Shown here: in pieces, positions 1 through 32,046 of the stretch
How positions within the stretch are numbered: the first letter of the stretch is position 1
Layout of the letters: each line of letters starts with the position of its first letter
From: a virus
IMG/VR virus record: IMGVR_UViG_3300031999_000131
Location: 1-32,046 of that record
DNA length: 32,046 nucleotides
Reading direction: 5' to 3' (one strand)
The notes under the pieces: generated by a model
What the model saw: the letters and a program-made list of their open reading frames with translations, nothing else
The model's database searches: none
Told to the model about the DNA's origin: nothing
Translations under genes and position numbers: made by a program

Positions 1-157
1 GACGGCGATGGGGGTCGCCCAGCATCCCCAGGAGGGTGTGCATGTTGGTCAGGTCGAAGCGCTTTGGCTCGTACTTGTCGGGCTGGAGCTTCTCCTGGTC
101 CACGAAGGAGTAGATGTAGTCAAGCGACTGTTGGTATCTGCGAGCTTGGCTAGGCAT
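1..157 (-). CDS. folC: Folylpolyglutamate synthase, N-terminal part (host gene, cut by window edge)
   Basis: FolC adds glutamate residues to folates in the cytoplasm. Only the first 52 codons are present; the gene continues past the left edge. The reading starts at an ATG (complement of 155-157) and gives a YQQSLDYIYSFVD segment followed by KRFDLTNMHTLLGMLGDPHRR-like sequence, which matches the known start of FolC (YxxALDYIYSFVD, FDLxRMxxLLxxLGNP) just before the ATP-binding loop. The ATG overlaps the stop codon of the upstream serine recombinase (ATGCCTAG), so the two may be translationally coupled. I infer that the prophage sits at the 5' end of this gene and supplies its upstream DNA. The first residues (MPSQAR) may therefore be phage-derived. 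The identification rests on a short stretch. Confidence 0.68.
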   Translation of the reverse strand, partial: MPSQARRYQQSLDYIYSFVDQEKLQPDKYEPKRFDLTNMHTLLGMLGDPHRR

Positions 158-1673
158 CGAGGCCGGGGCTGGCGGCGCCGCTGGTGATGGTGACGCGCAG
201 GCCGATCTGGCGGAGGAGGGCCTTGGTGGCCTGAAGATCGGTTCTGGCAGACCACCTCCGGCGGAAGGTGTCGATGGAGGGGGCGACCAGCTCAGCGAAA
301 GTCTGGCCCATGGTCTCCCGATCCAGGCGAGTGATGACGGTTCGCTTCTGCTCAAGCTCGGCCTGGATGGTCTCCAGTTCCTCCTCGAGCCGCTCCCGAT
401 GGCTGTAATATTCGGAGCGATCGATGAGCAAGGCCTCATAGTCCCGGGTCCATTGCTCCAGGCCCCGCAGGATCCTGTTCTCAGCGGCTTGTAGACTCGC
501 CACCTCATCGGCGGCATCGGCGTGTCCCCGATCGGCCAGGAGCAGCAGTTCCTCCTCGAGGAGGCTAGGTTCGGTGGCGCGCTCGATGAGCCAATTCAGC
601 ACCTGCTCCTCGACCTGATCCAGACGGAGACCATTGCGCGGGGTCGGCCTGGCGCACTCCGATCGGGGCCGCGGGCAGATCAGGTAATGGTAGAGGCCTC
701 TGGTGCTGCCTCCCCCGGTGATGGTCATGCGGCCCCCACAGTACCCGCAGTAGACGAAACCCGAAAGTTGGTAGTTGGTATAGGGATGCCTCTTGCCCTG
801 CTCGCGCCTGGCCGCCATCTCGCGTTGCGCCGCCTGCCAGGTCTCCTCCGGGATGATGGCTTGATGCTTGCCCTCGGCGGAGACCAAATCGACAGAGTCG
901 CGCCAGTCCCGCTTACGATGGTCCCAGCGGCGCCAGCTCACCCGGCCGGCATAGTAGGGCAAGCTCAGCATGTGTTTGACGGCTGTGGCGTTGTGGGGAT
1001 AGCGCTCGGTGGCATGGGCGCGGGCCAGGCGGAGGATGGCCTCGTAGGTCTGGCCTTCCAAGAACCAGGTGAAGATGCGCCGGACCAGATCGGCCTCGGG
1101 TCCATAAGGCACACCGTAACCCTCCTCACCGAGATGATAGCCGAAGGGGAGGTGATTGTTGGGGTGATAGCCGTCCTTGACGCGCCGGCGGGTGCCCATG
1201 CGGAAGCGCGCCTGGAGCTCCGCCACCTCATCCTGGGCCCGGGCTCGCTCGACGGAGCGCATCCAGATCGAGGCGCGATCGCGCTGTTCGGCGAACTGCA
1301 CCGGCTGCTGGACGGTGGTGGGCATGGAGAGGGAGAGCACCTGCACATTGTAGGAGGCCAGGTACTCCTCCACCTGGGCGATCAGCGCATCGGTGCGGCC
1401 GAGCCTGTCACGTCCACGGCAGATGAGCAGGTCAATACTACCCGAACGGGCTATTGACATCAGTTCTGTGTACACAGGCATATCGACGGCGGCATCGGCG
1501 AGGAAGATGTAACTCCTACTGTGGCCGGGAATGACGAGGGGTTCCTGGGCTTCATGCCAGCCGTCGGTGCGTTCGATGAGGCTGCGGCCGGCCTCGATCT
1601 GGGAGGGGATGGAATCCTTTTCGTCTGAGGCCTGGGAGGGACTGCTGACGGCGGCCCAGATCACACACCTCAT
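150..1673 (-). CDS. Large serine recombinase (probable phage integrase)
   Basis: Site-specific recombinase of 507 residues, in the normal size range for large serine integrases. The N-terminal resolvase domain (about 1-145) has the nucleophile Ser10 in WAAVSSPSQ and the DRLGR motif (Arg90, Arg93, matching Arg68/Arg71 of gamma-delta resolvase). A recombinase domain follows (about 160-290), then a zinc ribbon (Cys309, Cys312, Cys333, Cys340) and a coiled coil (about 385-455). Oddly, the usual Arg of the YxRVS motif is Ala8 here. No good Shine-Dalgarno precedes the ATG; a 16-base palindrome occupies that place. It is the last gene of the minus-strand lysogeny block and abuts host folC, the expected position for an integrase at a prophage end. 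Confidence 0.93.
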   Translation of the reverse strand: MRCVIWAAVSSPSQASDEKDSIPSQIEAGRSLIERTDGWHEAQEPLVIPGHSRSYIFLADAAVDMPVYTELMSIARSGSIDLLICRGRDRLGRTDALIAQVEEYLASYNVQVLSLSMPTTVQQPVQFAEQRDRASIWMRSVERARAQDEVAELQARFRMGTRRRVKDGYHPNNHLPFGYHLGEEGYGVPYGPEADLVRRIFTWFLEGQTYEAILRLARAHATERYPHNATAVKHMLSLPYYAGRVSWRRWDHRKRDWRDSVDLVSAEGKHQAIIPEETWQAAQREMAARREQGKRHPYTNYQLSGFVYCGYCGGRMTITGGGSTRGLYHYLICPRPRSECARPTPRNGLRLDQVEEQVLNWLIERATEPSLLEEELLLLADRGHADAADEVASLQAAENRILRGLEQWTRDYEALLIDRSEYYSHRERLEEELETIQAELEQKRTVITRLDRETMGQTFAELVAPSIDTFRRRWSARTDLQATKALLRQIGLRVTITSGAASPGLDA

Positions 1674-3567: not shown

Positions 3568-5652
3568 ATGAGACCAATCCGCTTGAGCATGACCAACTTC
3601 ATGCCCTACGCCCAACCGACGGAGCTGGACCTGTCGAGTCTGCACCTGGCCTGTCTGGCCGGCGAGAACGGCCACGGCAAGTCGGCGATCATCGATGCGA
3701 TCACCTGGGCATTGTGGGGGCAAGCACGAGCGCGGCGCGATGACGAGCTGATCCACCTCGGTGAGGAGCAGATGGAGGTCCGGCTGGACTTCCAGCTTGG
3801 CGATGAGCAGTACCGGGTCATCCGCCAGAGGGACAGCGCCGGCAGAGGGAACTCCACCCTGGAGTTCCAGGTCGGCAGTAACGGCCACTGGAGCCCGCTC
3901 ACCGGCGATACCATGCGGGAGACCCAGGAGATCATCGACTCCACGATCCACATGGACTACGACACCTTCATCAACTCCGCCCTCCTGCTGCAGGGCCGCG
4001 CGGATGAGTTCAGCAACCAGCCCCCGGGAAAGCGCAAGGAGATCCTGGCGCAGATCCTGAACCTGGGGGTGTGGGAGGTCCTGGAAGAGCGCGCGAAGCA
4101 ACACGTGCGGGAGGCAGAGGGGCAACTCACCGCGATCGCGTCCAAGGCCGAGGTTATGCGGGGCGATCTAGAGAGGCTGCCGGACTACGAGGCGGCGCTG
4201 GAGATGGCGGCCGGCGAGGCGCAGCGACTTGGTGCCGAACTGGAGGAAGCGCAGCAGGTGCTCAGCCAGGTGAAGGAGAAGGCGGCTGAACTTGGTTTCC
4301 AGAGACAGGGGCTGGCGGACCTGGAGAGGGAGATCGAGGTCAGGAAGCAGGAGGTGGCGGCCATACAGAGGCGGATCTCCGAGACCGATAGCTCGAAACT
4401 GGCGGCCTGTGCGGTGGAACTCGACGACATTCGGGCAAGACTGGCCGGCGTCGAGGAACTTCCGGCGGAAGGCGAGTCGATGGAGGAGAAAGAGATTGCT
4501 CGTCTGACGGCCCTTTCCGCAACCCTGAAAGCAAGGAATGACGGATTGAAGGCGGACATGGACGCGCTGCGGGAGGAGATGAATCTCCTGGAACAGGCAG
4601 GCGCCGCGTGTCCGGTTTGTGATTCTGAACTGACCGAGGAGCATCGGGGGGAGATCCTGGCGCAGAAGCAGACTGAGGGCGAATCGAAGGCGACTCAGTT
4701 CCGCGAGAACGCAGCCACAATCAAGGACGCCGAGCATAACCTGCAAAGATGGCAACAGCAATGGGCCGAGCGAAAGCAAAGCGTGACGCAGGGGAATCGC
4801 CTGCGGGTCCAGGAGAGCGAGTTGCTAGGCAAGATCGCCCAGCTCCAGGCGCAGGAGCAGAGAGTCGCCGAGTGGCAGGAGCAAGAGACGGCGCTGCGAG
4901 AGGGAATTGTCGAGAACGAGTTCAGGCAAAAGGAGATGCAGGCAGAGGTCCGAAATCTCCAATTACTGGCGGCGGGCGCGGATGAGGCCCGGCGGCAGGT
5001 GGACCGCCTAGGCGATGAGGTATCCCGGGCGAACCTGCGGGTGGGGGCGGCGACACAGCAGATCGACCACTGCCAATACCTGCGGGGTGAGGCTGAGAAA
5101 CTGGAGGCGCAACAGGCGGAGGAGACAGCGAAGAAGGCCACCTACGACGAGCTGCGGAAGGCCTTCGGCAAGCGCGGGATCCAGGCGATGATCATCGAAA
5201 CGGTGCTGCCAGAGATCGAGGAGAATGCCAACGAGCTGCTGGCGCGGATGAGCGACGGGCGGATGAGCGTGTCCTTCGAGAGCCAGCGGGAGACGAAGAA
5301 GGGCGACATCGCGGAGACGCTGGACATCCAGGTGAGCGACGAGCTGGGGGTGAGGAGCTACGACCTGTTCAGCGGTGGGGAGAGGTTCCGGCTGGATTTC
5401 GCCATCAGGATCGCCATCTCCAAGCTCCTCGCGCGGAGGGCCGGGGCCAGATTGCAGACGCTGATCATGGACGAGGGCTTTGGGAGCCAGGATGCCAGTG
5501 GGAGGGACCGGCTCGTGGAGGCGATTCAATCCGTGGCTGGTGACTTCGAGCTGATCCTGGTAGTGACGCACATCGACGAACTGAGAGAGGCTTTCCCGAA
5601 CCGGATCGAGGTGGTGAAGGGTCCGGCGGGGAGCCTGATCAGTGTGAACTAG
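3568..5652 (+). CDS. sbcC: SbcC/Rad50-type DNA repair ATPase
   Basis: SMC-like ATPase that works with SbcD (Mre11) to trim DNA ends and open hairpins. Visible motifs: Walker A GENGHGKS (32-39), long coiled coils (about 170-560), a zinc hook CPVC (348-351) at the coiled-coil turn, the ABC signature SGGER (602-606) and Walker B LIMDE (632-636) with the catalytic Glu636. At 694 residues it is shorter than E. coli SbcC (about 1,048) and nearer phage forms such as T4 gp46. A strong GGGAGGAG precedes the ATG. The sbcD partner lies downstream, separated only by a MazG-like gene. Confidence 0.95.
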   Translation: MRPIRLSMTNFMPYAQPTELDLSSLHLACLAGENGHGKSAIIDAITWALWGQARARRDDELIHLGEEQMEVRLDFQLGDEQYRVIRQRDSAGRGNSTLEFQVGSNGHWSPLTGDTMRETQEIIDSTIHMDYDTFINSALLLQGRADEFSNQPPGKRKEILAQILNLGVWEVLEERAKQHVREAEGQLTAIASKAEVMRGDLERLPDYEAALEMAAGEAQRLGAELEEAQQVLSQVKEKAAELGFQRQGLADLEREIEVRKQEVAAIQRRISETDSSKLAACAVELDDIRARLAGVEELPAEGESMEEKEIARLTALSATLKARNDGLKADMDALREEMNLLEQAGAACPVCDSELTEEHRGEILAQKQTEGESKATQFRENAATIKDAEHNLQRWQQQWAERKQSVTQGNRLRVQESELLGKIAQLQAQEQRVAEWQEQETALREGIVENEFRQKEMQAEVRNLQLLAAGADEARRQVDRLGDEVSRANLRVGAATQQIDHCQYLRGEAEKLEAQQAEETAKKATYDELRKAFGKRGIQAMIIETVLPEIEENANELLARMSDGRMSVSFESQRETKKGDIAETLDIQVSDELGVRSYDLFSGGERFRLDFAIRIAISKLLARRAGARLQTLIMDEGFGSQDASGRDRLVEAIQSVAGDFELILVVTHIDELREAFPNRIEVVKGPAGSLISVN

Positions 5653-5661
5653 GAGAACATC

Positions 5662-5985
5662 ATGGACCTGCAGGAATTCATCGCCAAGTGGTATGAAAGC
5701 AAGGGTTATAAAGCTGGGCCCACAACGCTGGCCTTGGGTGCCGTAGAAGAGATCGGCGAACTTAGCGAACCGATCTTACTGACGCAGTGCGCCGATTTCC
5801 AGTGCAGCAATCATAAGCGGAAATTGATCGAAACGGACCTGGTCCGAATCAATGTCGCGGCAGAGGTAGGCGATGTATTGATCTACCTATTGGCTCTCTG
5901 CAATAGCTTGGGCATCCGACCATATCTGAAATGCCTTAGCGCTGAAGTGAAGATTCTTGTAGAGGCAACGGGGGTGAGAGCATGA
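5662..5985 (+). CDS. MazG-like nucleotide pyrophosphohydrolase
   Basis: 107-residue protein of the all-alpha NTP pyrophosphatase type, which hydrolyses (d)NTPs to monophosphates. The metal-binding EExxE is seen as Glu29, Glu30, Glu33 (VEEIGELSE), and ExxD as Glu68 and Asp71 (EVGDVLIYLL). It lies between sbcC and sbcD, with its stop overlapping the sbcD start by 4 bases. Base composition is visibly more AT-rich than both neighbours, suggesting a later insertion into an sbcC-sbcD pair. Phage MazG proteins are proposed to alter nucleotide pools or alarmone levels; the substrate cannot be read from sequence. Confidence 0.82.
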   Translation: MDLQEFIAKWYESKGYKAGPTTLALGAVEEIGELSEPILLTQCADFQCSNHKRKLIETDLVRINVAAEVGDVLIYLLALCNSLGIRPYLKCLSAEVKILVEATGVRA

Positions 5986-7214
5986 AGATCCTGCACTTCG
6001 CCGACGCGCATCTGGGCGCGGATGACAGCGGGCCCATCGTGCCGGAGACGGGACTGAGCACGAGGCTGACGGATTTCCTGGGCTCGCTGGATGCCATCGT
6101 GGAGTACGTGGAGACCCACGAGATCGACTTGGTGATCTTCGCCGGCGATGGCTACAAGACGCGGACCCCGACACCGACGCTGGTGAGGGAACTCTGCCGG
6201 CGCCTCGCCAGGATTGCCGACACCTGCCCGCTGGTGTGGGTCATCGGCAACCACGACCTGCCTGGGGACGCGGCGCGCGCTAATACGGCGGAGATCTTGG
6301 GGACCCTGGCCGTGCGGGGGATCACCATCATGGACCTGCCCAAGATCACCCACCTCGCCACCACCTCGGGATCAGTGCAGATCATAGGCATCCCCTGGCC
6401 GACGCGCCACAACGTGATGGCATCGGAGAAGGTGGCAGGATTGCCCGCGGATGAGGTCAACAGGCTAATCGCAGCGGCGGTGGGAGACACGATCAGAAAG
6501 CTCGCGCAGCAGGCCGATCCGAACTGGCCGACCATCTTGGCCGCTCATCTCACGGTGGAGGGCGGGGCCTTCGGTGGGGAGCGATCGGTGATGCTGGGCA
6601 GCGACATCGTGATCCCGCTGGAGGCGGTGGCGCTGCCGCAGTTCGATTATGTGGCGCTCGGGCACCTGCACCGCCACCAGCAGCTCTACAACAACCCGCC
6701 GATCGTGTACTCGGGGAGCATCGAGAGGCTGGATTTCGGCGAGGAGAAGGAGGAGAAGGGGTTCGTGGTGGTGACCCTGGGCCAGCACCAGGGCGACGAA
6801 CTGTTTGGCGAGGGCGCATACACCGAGGTCGAGTTCGTTCCCCTGCCAGTGCGGCGGTTCCAGACGATCGCCGTCCACCTGGATGGGACGGATCCCACCA
6901 ATGCCGTGATGCAGTCGATCCAGGAGAGCCAGATCGACGGGGCGGTCGTCAGGGTGATCATCGAGGGGACGGCGCAGGCAGCGGCCATGCTGGATGAGGG
7001 CGCCATACACAAGGCGCTGGAGGGGGCGCTGAGAGCCACGGTGAGCAAACAGATCGAGCGTGTGACAAGAACTCGGCTGGATGGTCTCAGGTATGAGGAA
7101 ATGAAACCGCTGGAGCTGCTCGAGGCCTGGTTCGGCAGCAACGGCAAGCCGCCAGAGGAGCGAGAGGCGCTGATGAAGGCGGCGCAGGAATTGATGATGG
7201 AGGTGACGACGTGA
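5982..7214 (+). CDS. sbcD: SbcD/Mre11-type exonuclease
   Basis: Calcineurin-like phosphoesterase, 410 residues, the nuclease partner of SbcC. Metal-binding motifs are in order: Asp8 and His10 (FADAHLG), Asp56 (AGDGY), Asn90-His91-Asp92 (GNHD), His189 (AAHLTVEGG), and His228/His230 (GHLH). These cover the known two-metal centre. The C-terminal part (about 275-400) would be the capping and SbcC-binding region. The ATG overlaps the mazG-like stop (ATGA), and the gene overlaps the next start (GTGA), so all are translated as one coupled set. Together with SbcC it may process phage replication ends or aid recombination. Confidence 0.95.
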   Translation: MKILHFADAHLGADDSGPIVPETGLSTRLTDFLGSLDAIVEYVETHEIDLVIFAGDGYKTRTPTPTLVRELCRRLARIADTCPLVWVIGNHDLPGDAARANTAEILGTLAVRGITIMDLPKITHLATTSGSVQIIGIPWPTRHNVMASEKVAGLPADEVNRLIAAAVGDTIRKLAQQADPNWPTILAAHLTVEGGAFGGERSVMLGSDIVIPLEAVALPQFDYVALGHLHRHQQLYNNPPIVYSGSIERLDFGEEKEEKGFVVVTLGQHQGDELFGEGAYTEVEFVPLPVRRFQTIAVHLDGTDPTNAVMQSIQESQIDGAVVRVIIEGTAQAAAMLDEGAIHKALEGALRATVSKQIERVTRTRLDGLRYEEMKPLELLEAWFGSNGKPPEEREALMKAAQELMMEVTT

Positions 7215-8143
7215 CGATCAAAGGCATGAAAGACACCTACCGGCCGAAGAAGCTGGGCCGGATAGGGCTGGGAATCAAGGTCCCGGTGGAGGACGAGCAC
7301 GGCGAGATCAAGATGCGGGATGGCAAGGAAGTGACCCGGCCCCAGGCGGTGGATCACTTCGTAGTGCCCCAAGAGGTTGCAGAGATCTATGGCCCCGAAC
7401 CGAAGCGGCTCCCGATCTACTTCCTGATGGACCGTGAGGAGGACGTGTTCCCCCACAGTCTGATGCTGTACGCGGGCCGAGGTCTGGTCTGCATGGGAGA
7501 TGGAGAGAAGGTGCTCTTCCGCAGGCACATCATGGGCAAGGAGAGCGACGTCCTGGTCTATGGAGGCGTGGCGAAATGGGATGCCCTCAAGCGCAACGGT
7601 GTCCTCGATCAATGGGCCAGTGCGGAGGGGTACGGCACGATAGAGAAATGCGGGAACAGCGTGCGCTGTCTGTACAGGCAATGCCCCCGGCACAAGCCAA
7701 CGAAGTGTCGCCCCACCGGAATGCTGCGCTTCAGCGTCAAGGGGATCGTGCGGCAAGGGTACTACCAGATGACCATCCACCTGAACCCGATGGAGGAGCT
7801 ACTCTCTCAGCTCAGACACGGACGGGAGTTCATCGAGCAATACTGTGGCCGGCCGACGATCATGCACGCCAATTGGATCCTGGAGCTGACGGGGCCCGAG
7901 AAGCAGTGGGTGGACGGCCACCCATTGACCCTCTACACACCGCGGTTGGAGCTGGAGCCCGGGCCGGATGGCTGGATGGCCCGGGCCATGGAAGGCCGGG
8001 TGAGATTGCCCCACATGGAACGGATCACCGAGGAGGACGTCTGGGGGCCGAAGGAGACCGAGCCGCCGATGGATGCCGAGGTGCTGGAGGACTTACCTTA
8101 CGATCCTACGCCTGAGGGCGAAGATGATGATCTGGCGTTCTGA
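7211..8143 (+). CDS. phiC31 gp3-like protein (candidate recombination directionality factor)
   Basis: 310-residue protein. The order of motifs (a LGRIGLGIK start, AVDHFVVP, YGPEPKRLPIYF, a GLVCMGDG segment, then a four-Cys cluster Cys147, Cys153, Cys158, Cys166 followed by GMLRF) is one I recognise from a phage family often called 'hydrolase or metal-binding protein'. That family also includes gp3, the recombination directionality factor of phage phiC31. The Cys cluster probably binds zinc. The C-terminus is acidic. It starts with GTG overlapping the sbcD stop. A serine integrase is present in this prophage, so an RDF role is attractive, but many relatives occur in replication modules and their role is unproven. 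Confidence 0.6.
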   Translation: MTIKGMKDTYRPKKLGRIGLGIKVPVEDEHGEIKMRDGKEVTRPQAVDHFVVPQEVAEIYGPEPKRLPIYFLMDREEDVFPHSLMLYAGRGLVCMGDGEKVLFRRHIMGKESDVLVYGGVAKWDALKRNGVLDQWASAEGYGTIEKCGNSVRCLYRQCPRHKPTKCRPTGMLRFSVKGIVRQGYYQMTIHLNPMEELLSQLRHGREFIEQYCGRPTIMHANWILELTGPEKQWVDGHPLTLYTPRLELEPGPDGWMARAMEGRVRLPHMERITEEDVWGPKETEPPMDAEVLEDLPYDPTPEGEDDDLAF

Positions 8144-8570: not shown

Positions 8571-8814
8571 GCTGAGGATCCCCTACAGTGATGACATGCC
8601 CCTGGCCTTCCTCAAGGTGATGGAGAGCCTGGCTATCCCCTGCCGGTTCATGGCAGAGAACGGCAGCGGGGCCCTGCTGATCACGATGGGGGATGAGCAG
8701 GACGAAGCGGTGCTGAGGCTGTGGGATTGCCTGAGCGATCTGCGGGTGAGGTACATCGAGGCGAAGCAGCAAGCCGTCGCGGAGCAATTGACGTACCTGG
8801 AGGGGAGGGAATGA
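8551..8814 (+). CDS. Hypothetical early protein, 87 residues
   Basis: Not recognised. The start at 8551 is chosen because AAGGGGAAGC lies just before it and the upstream extension of the frame (Arg-rich) looks non-coding. The sequence is amphipathic with a Glu-rich C-terminus, no Cys cluster and no membrane segment; its stop overlaps the ATG of the next gene (ATGA). This tight coupling to the next gene suggests a linked role in replication, but nothing in the sequence states what it does. Confidence 0.72.
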   Translation: MAREKIELRIPYSDDMPLAFLKVMESLAIPCRFMAENGSGALLITMGDEQDEAVLRLWDCLSDLRVRYIEAKQQAVAEQLTYLEGRE

Positions 8815-9518
8815 TCCCGACCAGGTACACCCTCTATCCCACGGCGGCATTGAGACGGTCGGACGTCCCGATACATCTCAGATGGACCTACCTGGTGCTC
8901 TACGCACTGGCATGGACGCACCAGTACGAGTGGCTCAATGAGACCTATCAGCAGTTGGCCGGCACCTTCACAGCCCTCGAGGGCAGAGAGATTGGCCCGC
9001 AGGGGATCAGGCGGCGCTTGGATCGATTGGCGGAGTTCGGTTTGATCGAGAGGCGACGCACACACAGCCAGGAGTGGAGAACCTATCTCCTGGTCCGGCA
9101 CGACGCTGTGGGTGCTACTGGCAGTAGCACCCAGGAGGCCCTGGGTGCCACTGTAGAGGGGCACCCTATTAGTAATAAGACTGTGGTGTTGAATACTGAC
9201 ATTGTAGAAGAGACAGAGAACACACAACACCTATTACTTAATAGGGGTGCCACTGACGAAAACCGCCGGCTCCTAGAGGCCATGGGTGTGTTCCCCAAGA
9301 AGGCGAGAGCGCTGGCGCAGCTCCCCCATGTCACGCCGGAGTACCTGGAGGGCGTGATGGAGTATCGAGCCGGGGAGGCGGCCAGGGGAAAGGTGCTCGG
9401 CCCCGGCTGGGTGGTGACCACTGTGGCCGAGGCAGAGCAGATGCCGGATCAGGAGCCGGAGCCGGAAGGGCGCTACCGCTACATCCAAGGCAAGTACAAG
9501 GAGTTCGTGAGGCATTGA
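8811..9518 (+). CDS. Winged-helix protein, probable replication initiator (lambda O-like arrangement)
   Basis: 235 residues. The N-terminal half (about 20-100) reads as a winged helix: WLNETYQQLAGTF, then GPQGIRRRLDRLAEFGLIERR and a beta-rich RTYLLV strand. The C-terminal part (about 150-205) has MGVFPKKARALAQLPHVT and GKVLGPGWVVTTV, a helical pattern seen in phage and mobile-element replication proteins. The linker between them (about 100-148) is encoded by repeats and an AT-rich stretch (9109-9255) that look like an origin. This is the same layout as lambda O, where ori lies inside the gene. The start at 8811 follows GGGGAGGGA and overlaps the previous stop. Function is inferred from layout. 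Confidence 0.65.
   Translation: MIPTRYTLYPTAALRRSDVPIHLRWTYLVLYALAWTHQYEWLNETYQQLAGTFTALEGREIGPQGIRRRLDRLAEFGLIERRRTHSQEWRTYLLVRHDAVGATGSSTQEALGATVEGHPISNKTVVLNTDIVEETENTQHLLLNRGATDENRRLLEAMGVFPKKARALAQLPHVTPEYLEGVMEYRAGEAARGKVLGPGWVVTTVAEAEQMPDQEPEPEGRYRYIQGKYKEFVRH
9109..9255. repeat. Iteron-like repeats with AT-rich stretch: candidate replication origin
   Basis: GGGTGCYACTG occurs directly at 9110-9120, 9143-9153 and 9245-9255. The first copy is followed after one base by its exact inverse (9122-9132), making a 23-base palindrome. A partial inverse of the second, GGCACCC, is at 9160-9166. A longer imperfect inverted pair (9160-9179 and 9230-9251) brackets the segment. Bases 9166-9243 are clearly AT-rich in an otherwise GC-rich gene. 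Clustered iterons next to an AT-rich region inside an initiator gene is the known layout of lambdoid origins. Confidence 0.62.
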
Positions 9519-9519
9519 G

Positions 9520-9639
9520 ATGGCTGGCGGGCTGCAGGGGGACGGAGATTGGAGTTGGCTGGGATGTCTGATTGTGCTCGGGCTCCTGGTATGCGAGATC
9601 ATGGGGGCGCTATGGGTGCTGGTGAAATTGCTGGCATGA
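9520..9639 (+). CDS. Small single-pass membrane protein, 39 residues
   Basis: An ATG one base after the previous stop opens 39 codons ending at TGA 9637-9639, which overlaps the ATG of the next gene (ATGA). Residues 1-12 are polar. Residues about 14-38 are almost wholly hydrophobic (CLIVLGLLVCEIMGALWVLV), so one membrane span is expected. There is no clear ribosome site of its own; coupling to the upstream stop is likely. It could be an early-expressed membrane effector, but no function can be assigned. Confidence 0.55.
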   Translation: MAGGLQGDGDWSWLGCLIVLGLLVCEIMGALWVLVKLLA

Positions 9640-10076
9640 TCCCGAGGCTCAGGCCGGCTGAGTGCCTGCTGATCACCCATGAACCGGGCCTGCAGCGGCA
9701 GATCATCCTGGGCAAGTTCATCTGGATCCATGTCCGGGATGGCGGCGGCTATTATGCCTACGTCAACGACGTCACGCTGGAGTGGGACCTGATGAGGGAC
9801 CTGGATGCCTGGGGGATCGCGCCCTGCGTGTTGGAACGGATGAGCCGGATGGGCATCGATGAGGTCCATTTCTGCTGCAAGGATGAGAATGTGACCTACA
9901 TCACCAGCGTAGGGGACGTTCATAGGTTCGGGGAGCTGAAGCAGTTCGGGACGAGGGGGGCGCACTGGCACCTGCCCCGGAGGCATTGGGGCAAGGTGGC
10001 CGGGATCCAGAAGTACCGCCGCACGAATCGCAGGTTGGAGTTGGAATGGTTGGACCCGGAGGTGGTTCATGGCTGA
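9636..10076 (+). CDS. Hypothetical early protein, 146 residues
   Basis: Not recognised. I chose the ATG at 9636 because it overlaps the preceding stop codon, as is usual in this operon; the frame is open further upstream but that part overlaps the membrane gene. Features: IILGKFIWIHVRDGGGYYAY in a beta-rich first half, two adjacent Cys in HFCCKDENVTY, and a basic C-terminus (HWGKVAGIQKYRRTNRR). It ends with the gene-end motif EWLDPEV, which doubles as the ribosome site for the next gene. Confidence 0.7.
   Translation: MIPRLRPAECLLITHEPGLQRQIILGKFIWIHVRDGGGYYAYVNDVTLEWDLMRDLDAWGIAPCVLERMSRMGIDEVHFCCKDENVTYITSVGDVHRFGELKQFGTRGAHWHLPRRHWGKVAGIQKYRRTNRRLELEWLDPEVVHG
10044..10065 (+). repeat. Gene-end/ribosome-site cassette, copy 1
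   Basis: GAATGGTTGGACCCGGAGG plus TGG. It encodes EWLDPEV at the end of one gene and provides GGAGGTGG just before the ATG at 10069. Two close copies lie at 10279-10300 and 10458-10479. Confidence 0.7.
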
Positions 10077-10305
10077 CCTCGTGGCAATCCAGCGTTGTGA
10101 GGATGAAAAGACGTGGATCGGTTTCCCTGCTGAGGTCGTTCGGCAGGCGTGCATCAGCGTGTGCGGCGAAGAGATGATGACTTGGTGTTGGGGCAGTGAG
10201 GGCCCACAAGGTGGTGACTTATACGAGTGCAACTCGGCGTATTGTCAGATTGTCTGGACGATGCCTGAGCAGGAGATCCAGTGGCTGGAGCCGGAGGTGG
10301 CGTGA
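10069..10305 (+). CDS. Hypothetical early protein, 78 residues, Cys/Trp-rich
   Basis: Not recognised. It has five Cys (about residues 10, 28, 32, 40 and 54, with a sixth near 59) and several Trp, in patterns such as QACISVCGEE and MTWCWGSEG, hinting at a small metal- or disulphide-stabilised domain. The ATG overlaps the previous gene by 8 bases and has GGAGGTGG upstream. It ends with QWLEPEV, the same C-terminal motif as both neighbours. No signal peptide is present, so metal binding in the cytoplasm is more likely than disulphides. Confidence 0.65.
   Translation: MADLVAIQRCEDEKTWIGFPAEVVRQACISVCGEEMMTWCWGSEGPQGGDLYECNSAYCQIVWTMPEQEIQWLEPEVA
10279..10300 (+). repeat. Gene-end/ribosome-site cassette, copy 2
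   Basis: CAGTGGCTGGAGCCGGAGG plus TGG. It encodes QWLEPEV and places GGAGGTGG before the ATG at 10305. It differs from copy 3 (10458-10479) at only a few of 22 positions. Confidence 0.7.
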
Positions 10306-10484
10306 TGGCGGTACGAATCTACCTCGTTAGCGATGAAGGAGCTGCATCGACGAACAGTGAGGCGGCAGCGGATATATTGGAACTTGATGGGTACAAACGT
10401 TGCACCAAAGAAGAGTACCGGAAACGAATGCGGCAGATAAATCGAAAAGAGCGCAAAGAGTGGCTGGAGTCGGAGGTGATCTGA
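10305..10484 (+). CDS. Hypothetical early protein, 59 residues
   Basis: Not recognised. The ATG at 10305 shares a base with the previous stop (TGATG) and has GGAGGTGG upstream; an earlier in-frame ATG at 10281 would lie inside the repeat and is less likely. The N-terminal part starts MAVRIYLVSDEG and the C-terminal part is highly basic (KRCTKEEYRKRMRQINRKER). It ends with EWLESEV. Base composition is more AT-rich than the neighbours, suggesting separate acquisition between conserved cassette ends. Confidence 0.65.
   Translation: MAVRIYLVSDEGAASTNSEAAADILELDGYKRCTKEEYRKRMRQINRKERKEWLESEVI
10458..10479 (+). repeat. Gene-end/ribosome-site cassette, copy 3
   Basis: GAGTGGCTGGAGTCGGAGG plus TGA. 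It encodes EWLESEV and gives the strong ribosome site GGAGGTGAT for the GTG start at 10485. Confidence 0.7.
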
Positions 10485-12443
10485 GTGGCTCCGCAACCGG
10501 TTCGGGAGCGCATCTGGCAAGTTCTGGAGAGGGCGACGTATCCATTGACCAGCCAGGAGATCGCCCAACGCGCCGCGTGTGGGAGGGGGACTGTGCAGCG
10601 GTTGCTCCGGTGTCTCAAACTGTCGGATGAGGTGGAGGTCAGTATATTGTGGCTGGGGTGCAATTCGTACTCGAGGACCTACATTCTGAAGAGCCGAAAA
10701 TTGGGTCTCAAAATAGTGGCCGAGCTGGGACTCGGCGATCCCGGGGAGGGAGAGATGACTGAGAGGACTGAAGTTCAGGTAGCGGAGATCGTAGACAGCC
10801 GCTGGCAGACGCGCCAGGATGGGTACAGCGGGCCCAAGTTCGACGAGCTGGTGGAGTCGGTGAGGCACCAGGGGATCGTGAACCCACCCGGAGTATTTAG
10901 GAATCAGGCCGGAGAATGGGAACTCGTGTACGGGCATCGGCGCGTCGCAGCGGCACGTCAGGCCGGGTGCAGTTTGATACCGATAACGCGCCTCGATGGC
11001 GGATGTCAGGTGACTGACACGGCTGCACCTATCCTGGATCGATTCCAACAGATGGTGATCGCCGACAATCTCTACCACGAGGACCTGAGCCCGCTGGAGC
11101 TGGCTGAGGCGCTGCATGGCTTGATCGAGCAGCAGGGATTGAGGCAGGCCACGGTCGCGGAGATCTACGGCAAGAGCCAGCAGTGGGTGAGTGACAAGCT
11201 GCGGCTGCTGGACCTGGCGCCCGAGGTGCAGGAGAAACTTACCGCGCGCTCGGTGGAGGAGAGTGTGGCCCGGAGGTTGGCGCAGTTGCCCGAGGCATAC
11301 CAGGCGGCTGTAGCCAAGCACATCGAGGGCCGGCCGTCGCGGGAGGCCATTGGGATCATGCAGGAGATCGAGAAGGCGGCGGACCCGGCGTTCTGGGACC
11401 TGCCGGAGGACAGACCGTGGACACCGGAGCTGATCAAGGTGCAGGCGATGATGTATGACTGCCTGGAGAAGGTGCCGCAGGACAAGAAGGGGGAGGTCCT
11501 GGTCGCCCTGAGCAAGGCCTACATGTTGCAGCGCCCGGGCGGGGCAGGATGTTGGGGCATGGATCGGTTCGCCAAGGCCTGCGGCCTGAAGAGGCAGAAC
11601 CTCGCGGAGTGGCAGGCCGAGCATGGACGGGGTTGTGAGCAGTGCTTGTTCGCCGGAGAGGGCCTTTGGCGATATTGCGGTGAACCGGACACGAAAACCT
11701 GCACTCATTGCCTGATCGCCATCGATCCCGTGCGGCTGCCATATCCCGATGGCGAGGGGAAGTGCACCGAGTGCGTGAAGGAAGGGCACTGGTGCACGGA
11801 TGTTACCTGCTACATCGAGACGTTGAAGGTTGTCCGCGGAACGACCGAGCAGGCGGCCCAGGAGGAAGATCTCGAGGAGACAGTGGCCATGCTGGAGGAG
11901 TTGCGGGCCTTCTACGATCGGCAAGGGACAAATGAGGTGGAATGCGCGCACTGGCTGGCTCAGGCGTGCGAGTTTTGCGTGGAGTTTCGGGGGTCGGAGC
12001 ACAAAGAACAGTGCGGGGTTGAGGGGGCGAAGTACGTGGCCACGGCGTTCTGGCAGAGCGAGGAGATCGTCGTTCCGCGTTGCTCCGCCTTCGGGCTGAA
12101 GGACGCGAGTCGTATCCCGGAGATCGATCAGGGGTGCTTTGACGAGATCCTGCTGGGCTGGCTGGGTAAGATCGTGGCCCATGGAGGACTGGGTGACTGG
12201 CTACCGGGCGAGAGGGGAAAGGCCAGGATGGAATATCTGCGCTCGGGGGTCCTGAATCGGAAGCAGCTCGTGGCACTGCTGACCTATGTGGGGAATCCGG
12301 TTCTGACAAACTGGCACCCGTCGGACGAGTTGATGAATCCGATCACGGGGGAGAAGAGCACATGGACGGTGATGAAGGAAGCGGAGGAGGAACCGGCTCT
12401 GGACAGCGAGCTGCAGGAGACTGGGACGCCCGAGAGTGGATGA
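10485..12443 (+). CDS. ParB-like protein with N-terminal winged helix and Cys-rich C-terminus
   Basis: 652 residues. Residues 1-85 form a winged-helix-like region (TSQEIAQRAACGRGTVQRLL). The ParB/Srx-type domain spans about 95-195 with YGHRRVAAARQAG (149-161) and DNLYHEDLSPLELAEAL (194-210). A KorB/ParB-type HTH follows (ATVAEIYGKSQQWVSDKLRLL, 222-242). The tail has 17 Cys between 356 and 551, including CEQC (384-387), CTHC (406-409), CTEC (427-430), CTDVTC (437-442) and CEFC (495-498), suggesting zinc or iron-sulphur binding. GTG at 10485 follows GGAGGTGAT. An internal in-frame ATG at 10755 (residue 91) also has GGGGAGGGAGAG, so a short form without the winged helix is possible. No ParA is nearby, so plasmid-type partition is doubtful. 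Confidence 0.85.
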   Translation: MAPQPVRERIWQVLERATYPLTSQEIAQRAACGRGTVQRLLRCLKLSDEVEVSILWLGCNSYSRTYILKSRKLGLKIVAELGLGDPGEGEMTERTEVQVAEIVDSRWQTRQDGYSGPKFDELVESVRHQGIVNPPGVFRNQAGEWELVYGHRRVAAARQAGCSLIPITRLDGGCQVTDTAAPILDRFQQMVIADNLYHEDLSPLELAEALHGLIEQQGLRQATVAEIYGKSQQWVSDKLRLLDLAPEVQEKLTARSVEESVARRLAQLPEAYQAAVAKHIEGRPSREAIGIMQEIEKAADPAFWDLPEDRPWTPELIKVQAMMYDCLEKVPQDKKGEVLVALSKAYMLQRPGGAGCWGMDRFAKACGLKRQNLAEWQAEHGRGCEQCLFAGEGLWRYCGEPDTKTCTHCLIAIDPVRLPYPDGEGKCTECVKEGHWCTDVTCYIETLKVVRGTTEQAAQEEDLEETVAMLEELRAFYDRQGTNEVECAHWLAQACEFCVEFRGSEHKEQCGVEGAKYVATAFWQSEEIVVPRCSAFGLKDASRIPEIDQGCFDEILLGWLGKIVAHGGLGDWLPGERGKARMEYLRSGVLNRKQLVALLTYVGNPVLTNWHPSDELMNPITGEKSTWTVMKEAEEEPALDSELQETGTPESG

Positions 12444-13063
12444 CCACTCTCGAGGCCACAAGACTGCTGGGATTCCACACGGCCTCAGGTGGGGTGATTG
12501 ACGCTCTACGCAAGGCTGGCGTGGAAGAGACCAGGAATAACGGAGCGGGATCTGGCAGGAACGGCCGCTGCCTGTGGCGGCGTGACCAGGTGGAGTCGCT
12601 GGCCAAGGAACGGGAGCACGTGGCCTGGCTGAAGGCGCAGGGATTCCGGTTCTGCAATGGGTGCGGCGAATGGAAGGATCGGGCGAGCCACTTCGCTCCC
12701 TCTGGATACCGATGCAGGGAATGCATGAGGAAGGTGAACAAGGCGAAGGCGGCATGGGCGACGAGCAAACGGCAGAGGAGCCGGAGCACCTTCTGCAATA
12801 CCAATCCAGAGCGGCTCTCGGGGTCGGTGGAGAGCTATGTTGGACACCTCAGGCCGGCAGAACCGACGGATGCGCTGAAGTATGCCTGCATGGATGTGGG
12901 ATTTCATCATCGACCGATACCGAGGGGAACGACGAAAAGGAAGGCCTTCTGCGCGAAGTGCGGGGCCGAGAGGTGCATGTGGTATTCAAGGGTGGCACCC
13001 AAGGCGGTGGTGAAGATGGGGAGATTCCCCCATCAGGTGAGGGATTACCCTGATGCTGGGTAG
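12440..13063 (+). CDS. HTH/zinc-finger protein
   Basis: 207 residues from the ATG at 12440, which overlaps the ParB-like stop (ATGA). An upstream ATG (12362) has a fair ribosome site but adds a low-complexity stretch. Residues 1-55 resemble a MerR/excisionase-type helix-turn-helix (TTLEATRLLGF, RKAGVEE, LWRRDQVESL). Next is a zinc finger with Cys72, Cys75, Cys92, Cys95 (FCNGCGEWK and YRCRECMRK), a pattern common in phage HNH/endonuclease VII-like proteins, though no HNH catalytic residues are visible. A second cluster (Cys150, Cys171, Cys174, Cys179) lies near the end. It could be a DNA-binding regulator or an Xis-like factor. Confidence 0.68.
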   Translation: MTTLEATRLLGFHTASGGVIDALRKAGVEETRNNGAGSGRNGRCLWRRDQVESLAKEREHVAWLKAQGFRFCNGCGEWKDRASHFAPSGYRCRECMRKVNKAKAAWATSKRQRSRSTFCNTNPERLSGSVESYVGHLRPAEPTDALKYACMDVGFHHRPIPRGTTKRKAFCAKCGAERCMWYSRVAPKAVVKMGRFPHQVRDYPDAG

Positions 13064-14377: not shown

Positions 14378-14569
14378 ATGAAGATCGAGGAGATTGGGGG
14401 CGATCGCTATGAATCGTTTGAGGGAGCACGCCGAGCGAACATCGGCGCCCTTGTCGAACTGCTCCATCGCCAGATTGAGGCCGGTATAGCAGAAGGGCGG
14501 TATGTTGTGAGAGATGGCAAGGTCATGCTTTCGGAAGAAGCCAAGGGAGATACTAGCGATGACAAATGA
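14378..14569 (+). CDS. Hypothetical early protein, 63 residues
   Basis: Not recognised. A short, mostly helical protein (FEGARRANIGALVELLHRQI) with an acidic end. It overlaps the start of the tyrosine recombinase by 11 bases and shares its more AT-rich composition, so the two may have arrived together. It could be a small accessory factor of that recombinase, but there is no motif to show it. Confidence 0.55.
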   Translation: MKIEEIGGDRYESFEGARRANIGALVELLHRQIEAGIAEGRYVVRDGKVMLSEEAKGDTSDDK

Positions 14570-15485
14570 GACGATGAGGCAGTTCAGGAGTTTCTTGAGG
14601 GAGGAATTGCCAAGTCCGCCTTGGTCTTCGAATACACACAGGACGTATTCCGCGCAGGCGCACCAATTCCTGTGGTGGTGTGAAAATCTGGGCCTGGATT
14701 TCCGTAACCTGGGACATCAAGACATTGTGCAATACCGAGCATATTTGATGGATATGCCCTATTCGGTTAGCACGATCGGTGGTCGTCTAAACGCGATCCG
14801 GAAACTTTATCGGATGCTACAGGTGCGCGAACATCGCATCGACAACCCCGCGGAAGGTCTCCGAGCACCTATTGATGTGCGGGATCCCGAGACGAGAACC
14901 AAGATCTTTACAGAGCAGCAGCTCGCCGCGCTATTCTCTGCGCCCGATATATACACGCAAATAGGCATTCGCGATCGCGCGATCCTGGCACTGTTCGCGG
15001 GCCAAGCCTTGCGGCGTATGGAGGTGGCTGGGCTTCTATGCGAGCAGGTAGATTTGGAGGGGCCAACTATTTTGGTGATCGGGAAAGCGAGAAAGCAGCG
15101 CACGCTCTTCCTTGGGGATGTGCCAGCAACCTGCTTGGGAGATTGGCTGCGGATCAGGGACGAAATAGCGGCCAAGGGCGAACATGCGGTCTTCGTCCGC
15201 ACACACAGCGGTGGAAATGGTGGTGTGGGCAAGCGTCTTTCATTGACATCAATAAACAGATTGGTGGACAAGTATCTCAACGAGTTGGGACTCAAGGAAC
15301 GAGGGATTGGGCCTCATACCTTTCGACGTACAGTCGCATCGATCATCTACGATGAGGGGGCTAGGATGCAGCATGTCCAGCGCTTGCTGGGACATGACGA
15401 CCCGCGTCAGACCAGCAGGTATATACACATCCTGGATCCTGTCGCCAGCAATCCTGCGCGGTTGATGGACAGGCTGCTGAGATGA
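14559..15485 (+). CDS. Tyrosine recombinase (XerC/D-like)
   Basis: 308 residues. The start at 14559 follows AAGGGAG; an earlier ATG would add 15 residues. The N-terminal SAM-like DNA-binding domain (about 1-100) is followed by the catalytic domain with the full set: Arg152 (ALRRMEVAGL), Lys179 (GKARKQR), His253 and Arg256 (HTFRR), His279 (LLGHDD) and Tyr288. It should cut and rejoin DNA through a 3'-phosphotyrosine. It is not at the prophage end; a serine integrase holds that place, so this enzyme may resolve dimers or circularise phage DNA, or be a passenger. Codon use is more AT-rich than on either side, a sign of transfer. It overlaps the RusA-like gene (ATGA). Confidence 0.93.
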   Translation: MTNETMRQFRSFLREELPSPPWSSNTHRTYSAQAHQFLWWCENLGLDFRNLGHQDIVQYRAYLMDMPYSVSTIGGRLNAIRKLYRMLQVREHRIDNPAEGLRAPIDVRDPETRTKIFTEQQLAALFSAPDIYTQIGIRDRAILALFAGQALRRMEVAGLLCEQVDLEGPTILVIGKARKQRTLFLGDVPATCLGDWLRIRDEIAAKGEHAVFVRTHSGGNGGVGKRLSLTSINRLVDKYLNELGLKERGIGPHTFRRTVASIIYDEGARMQHVQRLLGHDDPRQTSRYIHILDPVASNPARLMDRLLR

Positions 15486-16484: not shown

Positions 16485-16922
16485 ATGACACGAGGGAAGA
16501 AGCGCTCACCAGAGGACATCGAGATAGGGCTCCAGGCGCTCGCTGAGACGGGGGGGAATGCCGAGGAGGCGTCCCGCAAGACGGGCATCCCGGCCAATAC
16601 CCTGCGCGAGTGGAAGCTCCAGTTCGGAGATGAGTTCGGAGAGCTTCGGAGAGAAAAACGCTCCGACCTGATCGAGGACGTCTGGGCAGCGGCGGCCGAG
16701 GCGTTGGGATTCCTGCGAAAGAAGCTGCGGCGAATGAAAGGCAAAGACCTGGCCGTGACCTATGGTATTTTGACCGACAAAGCGCTACTGCTGGGCGGGG
16801 AGCCAACCGGGATCAACGAGAACCGCGAGAAGCCGATGATCTATTTGCCCAAGGTGGAGGATGATCCCTTGGAGGGCGAGCCCGGGACCTCAGTGGAGGT
16901 TCCATCAAAGCCCGGCGTTTGA
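16485..16922 (+). CDS. Terminase small subunit (probable)
   Basis: 145 residues. The N-terminal half (8-50) is a homeodomain-like HTH (GLQALAETGGNAEEASRKTG, then PANTLREWK), as in DNA-recognising small terminases. A helical middle (about 60-105) would make the ring, and an acidic C-terminus follows. It directly precedes and overlaps the large subunit gene by 62 bases, the standard order. No Shine-Dalgarno is visible before the ATG. It would bind the phage pac or cos site; no such site is identified here. Confidence 0.8.
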   Translation: MTRGKKRSPEDIEIGLQALAETGGNAEEASRKTGIPANTLREWKLQFGDEFGELRREKRSDLIEDVWAAAAEALGFLRKKLRRMKGKDLAVTYGILTDKALLLGGEPTGINENREKPMIYLPKVEDDPLEGEPGTSVEVPSKPGV

Positions 16923-18186
16923 GGTTCTGTATGGTGGACAGGCGGGCGGGGGCAAGACGGAATCGCTGCTCATCGAGGCGCTCCGTCACGTGCACGTCCC
17001 GGGTTACAACGGCATCCTATTTCGTCGCACCTTTCCAGAGCTAGAGCAACCCCAAGGCCTGATTGAGCGCAGCCGCGAGTTCTGTCCGAGGTTGGGGGGG
17101 CGGTTCAACGAGACCAAGACGGCATGGCGGTTTCCCGCCAAGTCCATGGTGCTGTTCAGACACATGGAGGGCGAGCCGGACCGGCTGAAACATCAGAGCG
17201 CGGAGTATGCCTACATCGGTTTCGATGAGCTGACTACCTTCACTGAGCAGCAGTATCTCTACCTCTTCAGCCGAGCGAGGACGACTTGCGGAGTAGTGCC
17301 CAAGATCAGGGCGGGGACCAATCCGGGTGGAATCGGTCATGAGTGGGTGAAACGCCGGTGGGGACCGTGGCTCGATAGGAGCCATCCGAGACCAGCGAAA
17401 GATGGCGAGGTCCGTTGGTTCAAGAGGGAGGGCGGCGAGGAAGTAGAATGCGCGCCAAACGACCCAGATGGGCTGTCGCGGACGTTCATCCGCTCGAGCG
17501 TATGGGACAACCCGTACCTGCTGAAGCGGGATCCGGGCTATGTGGCGCGGTTAAAGGCGCTGCCGCTGGTGGATCGACAGCGGCTCCTGGAAGGCAACTG
17601 GGATGTGATGGCCGGGGCCGGGAACGTGATCAGGCGGGAATGGTTCGAGATTGTCCAGGCGGTGCCGGCGGAGGCGGTGAGGGCGAGATACTGGGACCTG
17701 GCGGCCACGGAGAAGCAGGTCTCGGGCAACGATCCAGACTATACCGCCAGGGCGAAGCTGGCCCGGCACAATGGGGTCTACTACATCGAGGAAGTAGCGG
17801 CGGTGCAGCGGCGGTGGGCATCGGTCAAGGCCCTGCTGGTGCAGGTAGCGGAACTCGATGGCGCCGAGGTAATCATCGGGGTGGAGCAGGAGCCGGGGGC
17901 CTCGGGCAAGGCGCTGATCTACGAGATCGTGAGCCACCCGGGCTTGCAGGGGCGGTTCACGGTGCGGGGATACGCGCCCAGGAAGGACAAAGTGCAGAGG
18001 GCCAATATCTGGGCCAGCCAGGCACAGGTAGGGAACGTCAAACTGGTGAAGGGCGATTGGGACATGGAGGCCTTCCTGGCGGAGTGCGAGATGTTCCCGG
18101 AGGGCGTACACGATGACAGGGTTGACGCCGTGAGCGGGGCGGTGCACATGCTGGAGCGCGCCGGCTCGCTGATCGATTTCGGGTGA
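16861..18186 (+). CDS. terL: Terminase large subunit
   Basis: Packaging motor and nuclease, 441 residues. The ATPase has Walker A GGQAGGGKT (25-33) and Walker B YIGFDE with Asp122 and Glu123. The RNase H-like nuclease has Asp279 (RYWDLAATEK), an acidic pair Glu342/Glu344 (GVEQEPG) and Asp418/Asp419/Asp422 (HDDRVDAVSG). All key residues are in place. The start overlaps the small subunit gene; GTGGAGG touches the ATG with almost no spacer, so coupling is likely. The portal gene follows after 7 bases. Confidence 0.96.
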   Translation: MIPWRASPGPQWRFHQSPAFEVLYGGQAGGGKTESLLIEALRHVHVPGYNGILFRRTFPELEQPQGLIERSREFCPRLGGRFNETKTAWRFPAKSMVLFRHMEGEPDRLKHQSAEYAYIGFDELTTFTEQQYLYLFSRARTTCGVVPKIRAGTNPGGIGHEWVKRRWGPWLDRSHPRPAKDGEVRWFKREGGEEVECAPNDPDGLSRTFIRSSVWDNPYLLKRDPGYVARLKALPLVDRQRLLEGNWDVMAGAGNVIRREWFEIVQAVPAEAVRARYWDLAATEKQVSGNDPDYTARAKLARHNGVYYIEEVAAVQRRWASVKALLVQVAELDGAEVIIGVEQEPGASGKALIYEIVSHPGLQGRFTVRGYAPRKDKVQRANIWASQAQVGNVKLVKGDWDMEAFLAECEMFPEGVHDDRVDAVSGAVHMLERAGSLIDFG

Positions 18187-30297: not shown

Positions 30298-32046
30298 CCG
30301 AGTATTTCCGCATCGAGGGGAAGAACGACATCAAGTTCGATGAGGGGGCGACCGGCCCATATACGCTGGCCAGGGGGAATCCACCTCGGGACATGAGCAG
30401 GACGCTGACCAGGCAGGAGGTGATCAGCGAGCTGGGGAGGCTCCCTCTGGGGATCCGGGGGCACGCGCTCAATCGCGGGATGAGCATGGCCACCTTCCCA
30501 TTCAACGTGCAGGCGACAGCAGCCGCGTTCACGGATGTGGCCATGGAGCAGGCGCTGCACGATCTCAAAGAGACGTTGAACGAGGGCGAGCTCTACATCG
30601 AGAGTGAGAGCGCCAGGGGCACGCAGGCGGTGCTGCGCTACAAGAGCGATGGGGCGGTTCAGAACTCCTACAAGACGATCTATCATGGGATCCTCGAGGA
30701 CCCGGGGGCGCGCCAGGTGCTGGGGGCGACGGTCAAGAACCACCGGTTGGAGGGCCTGGGGCTGACGCTGTACATGGAGCCCAAGTGGAGGCCGACCAGC
30801 GCGATCATGCTGGGGCCGAACGAGATCTACTGCCCGGGCTTCGAGGAGGATGGGAACGCGGATGGGACGGCAGATCAGTGGACCGCGCTCAATGCGCCGG
30901 TGCTGACCATGGAGAGTACCATCGTCCTGCAAGGCTTCTACAGCCAGCAGGTGGACACCAATGCCGCCAACGAGGGCCTGTATAGCACGGTTGCAGTCGC
31001 ACCCGCAGCGGTCACCACGGCAATCGCCTATGCCTGGATCTGCAGACCGGCAGCGGGCACCAATATCACGGTGCAGGTATGGGATTCTACGGCTGGGGCA
31101 GAGCGGGGCCATGCCCATTTCGACACAGCAGGCTGGCCCACCGCCACCGCCAAGGATGGGACCAACACATTCAAGCGTGTGGCGGTTCCAGTCGCCGCGG
31201 GGATAGTCCCTGGCGCCAACCATGTACTGCGGATCTTCTCCGATGCGGCCACGGTCACCACTTTCTACGTGGACAAGGCCTACCTCAAGTGGGACACCAC
31301 CACCATCCCCGACGAATGGTGCGATCACTGGCTGATCTACAATCACTACGACACGACCGAAAGCGCCGCGCACGTTGGCCACCAGAACTACTTCGACGTG
31401 TCGGACCTGAAGGGGACGGATGAGGCACGTTTATTGATCAGAGTTGAACCCATACAACAAGCCGATTTGACACGAGCGGCGGATTTGATCCTGGCTCGCC
31501 GCAGCCAATTCACGTATCCGGGCGATATAACCAGCGCCGCAGGTAACGTTCGCGACGTGCATTGGTTGGAGGCCGAAGATGCTGTATTAAGCCTTTGGGC
31601 ACCTGCTGCCTTGCCCCGGTGTTCCGGCGGCAATCATGTTACCAATGCGGCGAATATCTCGGGGTTCGCGGAATGGTCATTCCCGCGCCTTACTCCAGGG
31701 GCGATGGGCGTCTCGAATTATAGTAGTCAGGTACGGGGGCGTTGGGATGTATTCGGTGTCGTCTATGCCAATGATATAGTCAATACACAATATCGTTTAT
31801 CATATTCCAATTTCATTGCTTTCGGCGCCACTGCTCTATGGTACTACAACCCTTGGGTCAAGCAGAAGGACGCGAACACATGGCAATTGGTATATTTGGG
31901 AGAAATCGACTTTGACCAATATCTCCGCACTGGCTTCACGGCGGGGGTGATGTCCTTATACTCCTGTAAAAATGAAGGCGGCGTGAGTACACTTTGGTGG
32001 TCTACGGATCACACAGCCCTCGAGGGGCAGAAAGGATACTCACGCC
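30294..32046 (+). CDS. Dit-like distal tail protein with possible carbohydrate-binding insert (incomplete at right edge)
   Basis: Open for 584 codons from the ATG at 30294 (overlapping the tape measure stop) to the window end. The first 160 residues (RTLTRQEVISELGRLPLGIR, YKTIYHGILEDPGARQ, LTLYMEPKWRP) resemble a distal tail/upper baseplate region. Then comes CPGFEEDGNADGTADQW (about 180-196), which opens a beta-sandwich of the carbohydrate-binding-module type, ending near FYVDKAYLKW (about 330). The last 200 residues, rich in Trp, Tyr and Asn, are unassigned. From about 31425 codon use becomes markedly more AT-rich, suggesting a recombined C-terminal part for host recognition. Placement after the tape measure supports a tail tip role. 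Confidence 0.75.
   Translation, partial: MTEYFRIEGKNDIKFDEGATGPYTLARGNPPRDMSRTLTRQEVISELGRLPLGIRGHALNRGMSMATFPFNVQATAAAFTDVAMEQALHDLKETLNEGELYIESESARGTQAVLRYKSDGAVQNSYKTIYHGILEDPGARQVLGATVKNHRLEGLGLTLYMEPKWRPTSAIMLGPNEIYCPGFEEDGNADGTADQWTALNAPVLTMESTIVLQGFYSQQVDTNAANEGLYSTVAVAPAAVTTAIAYAWICRPAAGTNITVQVWDSTAGAERGHAHFDTAGWPTATAKDGTNTFKRVAVPVAAGIVPGANHVLRIFSDAATVTTFYVDKAYLKWDTTTIPDEWCDHWLIYNHYDTTESAAHVGHQNYFDVSDLKGTDEARLLIRVEPIQQADLTRAADLILARRSQFTYPGDITSAAGNVRDVHWLEAEDAVLSLWAPAALPRCSGGNHVTNAANISGFAEWSFPRLTPGAMGVSNYSSQVRGRWDVFGVVYANDIVNTQYRLSYSNFIAFGATALWYYNPWVKQKDANTWQLVYLGEIDFDQYLRTGFTAGVMSLYSCKNEGGVSTLWWSTDHTALEGQKGYSR

Follow-up and report, generated by a model that had tools for sequence, protein, structure and literature searches.

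A predicted replication origin lying within its cognate initiator gene in an environmental phage, and its apparent exchange together with the DNA-binding domain

Introduction

Initiator genes that carry their own origin are known from phage lambda and from RepA_N plasmids. The lambda ori lies in the middle of gene O, where an AT-rich tract accompanies four iterons (PMC7466680; PMC5043065). In plasmid pSK41, the winged-helix N-terminal domain of the RepA_N initiator binds four boxes located centrally in rep, the linker is encoded by the origin and the C-terminal domain binds primase (PMC5703833). In pPR9, a segment of ~500 bp matching the N-terminal domain and the origin has been replaced (PMC5703833).

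The locus analyzed here lies in the window, the whole 32,046-bp virus contig IMGVR_UViG_3300031999_000131 (61% GC). It shares with lambda O/ori a putative origin placed mid-gene in the initiator, palindromic iterons, a directly adjoining AT-rich block and an origin-encoded linker. Lambda has four 18-19-bp iterons 20-24 bp apart, which are said to bind initiator dimers, whereas the window has two palindromes of 23-24 bp, their putative equivalents, 33 bp apart and, unlike lambda, one more half-site, the fifth site of the array, past the AT block. With pSK41, a staphylococcal plasmid whereas the window is a phage, the locus has in common a winged-helix N-terminal domain, sites central in its own gene, an origin-encoded linker and a separate C-terminal domain, although pSK41 carries four Rep boxes instead of two palindromes and a half-site. 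The joint exchange of N-terminal domain and origin in pPR9 is of the same kind as the one that seems to have taken place in the window phage. The locus thereby adds to this kind, exemplified by lambda O and the RepA_N plasmids, an initiator-origin pair without a named family.

Results

Gene neighbourhood and putative initiator

The following genes of the window are referred to below.

150-1673, minus strand: large serine integrase
3568-7214, rightward block: SbcC/SbcD-like genes
7211-8143, plus strand: Gp3-like recombination directionality factor
8811-9518, plus strand: putative replication initiator gene (235 aa), so assigned from weak phrog_270 and phrog_428 matches, a low-confidence model and three relatives
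9549-10076, rightward block: gene without assigned function
10485-12443, plus strand: ParB-like gene (ParB_N and HTH_ParB domains; ParB HTH E 3e-23)
14514-15485, plus strand: tyrosine recombinase
16861-18186, plus strand: terminase large subunit

Downstream of the ParB-like gene, the rightward block holds RusA-like, terminase, portal and capsid genes and the tyrosine recombinase, which, with the large serine integrase, gives the phage two recombinases of different kinds. The terminase large subunit is nearest, at 41% identity, to those of the methanogen viruses Methanoculleus virus Blf4, psiM100 and psiM2, so that the host may be either bacterial or archaeal.

Three relatives of the 235-aa protein were found, all on virus contigs: L005 (73% identity), L006 (60%) and L007 (53%). 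Genomes searched directly for a host or prophage gave no relative, nor did named phages, and a plasmid search returned a single insignificant match. Neither L007 nor the winged helix, used as queries in further scans, added a phage, and the Gp3-like protein gave nothing; with the ParB-like protein, a broader search yielded one additional short contig, L025. The predicted organization of the protein is as follows.

Residues ~1-98: N-terminal winged helix
Residues 47-98 (8949-9104, plus strand): predicted DNA-recognition part of the winged helix, 87% identical to L005 and 58-65% to L006/L007
Residues ~99-150: linker, encoded by the putative origin
After the linker: C-terminal helical domain

The original prediction described the product as a winged-helix initiator of the lambda O type. 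That it is an initiator with a winged helix is supported by weak homology to two PHROG families of 'replication initiation protein' (phrog_270, E 8.8e-5; phrog_428, E 0.009) and by a low-confidence structure model in which the order H-H-H-E-E, then a disordered linker, then helices is winged-helix-like. The homology to these families is confined to the N-terminal half, with the C-terminal domain unmatched, and phrog_270 is matched by just two of the four family members. A fold search of the protein against the PDB, with models of low confidence, gave no significant match. The protein has no Pfam domain, and RepA_N (PF06970) was absent from Pfam scans of all four proteins at E up to 10. Among the families of O-like proteins (phrog_277, 391, 678, 345 and others), the N-terminal domain scored best with phrog_345 at E 0.35, whereas lambda O itself matches phrog_277 at 1e-152. 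The term O-like therefore holds for the layout and not for the protein family; belonging by sequence to neither the lambda O nor the RepA_N family, the protein is classed by function among initiators whose genes carry their own origin. A rolling-circle origin was set aside, the protein being without an HUH motif as judged by eye.

Five sites in two palindromes and a half-site

The array and its adjoining block comprise the following elements.

9110-9120, plus strand: site 1, GGGTGCTACTG
9122-9132, minus strand: site 2, GGGTGCTACTG, forming palindrome A (9110-9132) with site 1
9143-9153, plus strand: site 3, GGGTGCCACTG; its distance from site 1 is 33 bp in each of the four phages
9156-9166, minus strand: site 4, GGGTGCCCCTC, weaker, forming palindrome B (9143-9166) with site 3; position kept in all relatives
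9167-9244, no strand: AT-rich block (33% GC), a putative DNA-unwinding element that begins with almost the same sequence in each of the four phages
9245-9255, plus strand: site 5, GGGTGCCACTG, beyond the AT block and inverted relative to site 4
9156-9255, no strand: dyad-symmetric segment whose outer arms are sites 4 and 5 and whose inner arms are partly complementary

Three direct copies and one inverted copy of GGGTGCYACTG had been claimed, and all four are exact (9110+, 9122-, 9143+, 9245+) and unique in the 32,046-bp contig. The count itself had to be revised, the array holding five sites of which the weaker one at 9156-9166 (-) had been missed. The predicted 23-base palindrome was likewise recovered at 9110-9132 (25 bases with its flanks, 9109-9133), yet the actual arrangement is two palindromes, the second imperfect and 24 bp long, at a spacing of 33 bp, close to three helical turns, plus one half-site past the AT block. 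The sites run + - + - +, with successive starts 12, 21, 13 and 89 bp apart. When one mismatch was allowed, GGGTGCYACTG had eight matches in the contig against 1.3 expected from dinucleotide shuffles, none of 100 of which reached eight. With a matrix built from the window and L005 sites, the five array sites are the five top scores of the contig, a partly circular result as the matrix includes them. Five clustered copies of one 9-mer arose in 0/100 protein-preserving permutations for the window, L006 and L007; L005, the sites of which vary between C and T, fails this test.

Repressors too combine a winged helix with palindromic sites, and autoregulation is common among initiators, so the array might be an operator through which the protein, as a regulator and not an initiator, would repress the operon it belongs to or a promoter close by. 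The array is however located mid-gene and no promoter-like site was found within it, while an origin is the better fit to the conserved adjacent AT block and the weak homology to initiators. Autoregulation is moreover compatible with origin function, and we judge a purely regulatory role to be very unlikely.

AT-rich block and dyad symmetry

No 78-bp stretch of the contig is lower in GC than the AT-rich block that had been noticed beside the repeats (GC fraction 0.333), which shares this minimum with a stretch at 31745. Its GC content is 28-33% in all four phages, against ~61% for the contigs, and its length varies slightly. A GC-skew check, suggested with the original prediction, showed no switch at the array, though the operon runs in one direction. 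The start of the block, CACCCTATTARNAATAA, was searched in viral contigs and found at 38 loci, with flanking iterons only in the relatives already found; several of the other loci are cell-wall-hydrolase-like genes or unrelated.

Folded as DNA, 9156-9255 beats shuffles in all four phages, with z from -3.0 (window) to -6.6 (L006). The same segment folded as RNA does so in three of the four (z -4.2 to -5.3; window just -1.4), as would be expected if the repeats reflected mRNA structure in the form of a regulatory hairpin between sites 4 and 5. Sites 1-3 have no need of such a hairpin, most of the pair-keeping changes fall within the sites, where binding is enough to account for them, and an Rfam search gave no match. 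Taken by itself, the inner AT block goes barely beyond a synonymous null and is significant for L005 only, so that a hairpin role is no more than possible; as the explanation of the repeats, an RNA structure appears extremely improbable.

We also considered, as a rather unlikely combination, that the block is a bounded dyad-symmetric element and not a plain melting region, and that the host could be an archaeon. If so, the flanking initiator sites, together with the complementary arms inside them, could cause a hairpin to be extruded or keep unwinding within a bubble of fixed size, a two-sided geometry that differs from the one-sided arrangement of lambda, and in an archaeal host the initiator would load a different helicase.

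Conservation of the array at the DNA level

The original prediction would have been contradicted by relatives that keep the protein and lack the repeats. In all three relatives the array is kept, the five sites occupying identical codons with the same 12/21/13 spacing in all four phages. Insertion of a transposon was rejected, as the array occupies the same place throughout. The site sequence falls into two classes: GGGTGYYACTG in the window and L005, and RGGTGACGYYS in L006 and L007, where it occurs five times each. L005 has four exact copies of GGGTGYYACTG and none elsewhere in its 37-kb contig, and this motif is absent from L006 and L007. Outside the arrays, RGGTGACGYYS has one copy in the L005 contig and two in that of L007, so the classes are largely private.

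Conservation at synonymous positions, the comparison proposed with the original prediction, was evident in the codons of the sites. Between the window and L005, codons for shared amino acids were identical at 21:2 in the sites versus 80:55 elsewhere (Fisher p 0.002), and between L006 and L007 at 22:1 versus 61:46 (Fisher p 0.0002). The excess is present in all six phage pairs (p below 0.04), which are not mutually independent. The encoded peptide changes along with the iteron class, from GAT to GDA, which argues that the DNA and not the protein constrains this stretch. Retention of the five-fold repetition while the site sequence changed is what is expected for binding sites of one changing protein.

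These data also bear on whether the repeats are a coincidence or the outcome of selection, at the level of the protein, on its repetitive Gly-Ala-Thr linker. Three of the five sites do encode peptides that are alike (GAT or GDA), but the inverted copies encode different ones (SST, GHP), the synonymous codons are frozen and the five-fold DNA repetition persists where the peptide differs between classes. We therefore attach next to no probability to this explanation.

Joint inheritance of sites and binding domain

The window is closer to L006 than to L005 in SbcD (82% versus 58%) and in ParB (73% versus 48%), whereas its winged helix is 87% identical to that of L005 and 58% to that of L006. Within the initiator gene, identity to L006 is 98% over the first 60 nt; nt ~120-500, spanning the recognition part and the origin, are mostly 70-90% identical to L005 and ~47-63% to L006, and toward the 3' end the difference fades. 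Four-taxon informative sites within 8982-9181 favour the grouping of the window with L005 at 37:3:1, while bins from 9582 to ~12,980 mostly favour the window with L006, as do most flanking bins. By these comparisons the iteron type goes with the winged helix of the initiator, not with its ParB or SbcD neighbours, in a covariation that rests on few independent events, each class being represented by two of the four known phages. The locus thus resembles other initiator genes carrying their own origin in that the array is kept at the DNA level in protein-keeping relatives and co-varies with the binding domain. The window phage is L006-like in most of the region and seems to have received the winged-helix and iteron segment from an L005-like phage, and the binding domain and its sites seem to have been swapped between related phages as one unit.

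This pattern separates the initiator from the ParB-like protein as the ligand of the sites. The ParB-like gene lies ~1 kb downstream of the array and parS sites are palindromes, so the array could be a parS-like centromere serving partition and not initiation. No ParA partner was identified for the ParB-like protein, and 9500-13000 is without a clear palindromic centromere. The ParB of the window, however, resembles that of L006, although the iterons are those of L005, so ParB did not travel with the sites, which track the winged helix of the initiator. An adjacent AT-rich block is also not needed by a parS. We consider a centromere very improbable.

Discussion

Taken together, sequence comparison indicates with good confidence that 9110-9255 is a theta-type origin located within the gene that encodes its initiator, and the 235-aa protein very probably binds the five sites. 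By analogy with lambda and pSK41, initiator dimers would bind both palindromes, strain from the nucleoprotein complex would open 9167-9244, and the C-terminal domain would recruit the host replicative helicase or primosome. No match to DnaB_C, IstB/DnaC-like or Pol I profiles was found in any of the four phage contigs, which may be incomplete, and the first two profiles likewise identified no partner of the lambda P type in the window phage; host factors are thus the likely source of these functions.

The predicted initiator-origin pair belongs to a previously undescribed phage group. Since the binding domain and its sites form one continuous piece of DNA, a recombination event can exchange the two together and leave specificity unbroken, and these environmental phages show how an embedded origin lets a binding domain and its predicted sites move jointly. 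They also amount to a natural experiment, with two iteron sequences matched to two winged-helix versions and a recombinant phage between them, through which the specificity code of the winged helix becomes directly testable by swaps of a few residues, with binding as the readout.

A similar grouping was observed elsewhere in the window. The serine integrase (150-1673, minus strand) is 75% identical to that of L005 and 51-52% to those of L006/L007, and the Gp3-like directionality factor (7211-8143, plus strand) is 59% identical to that of L005 versus 47-49% for L006/L007, although SbcD, located between them, groups the window with L006. Integrase and directionality factor thus seem to be a second specificity pair inherited together.
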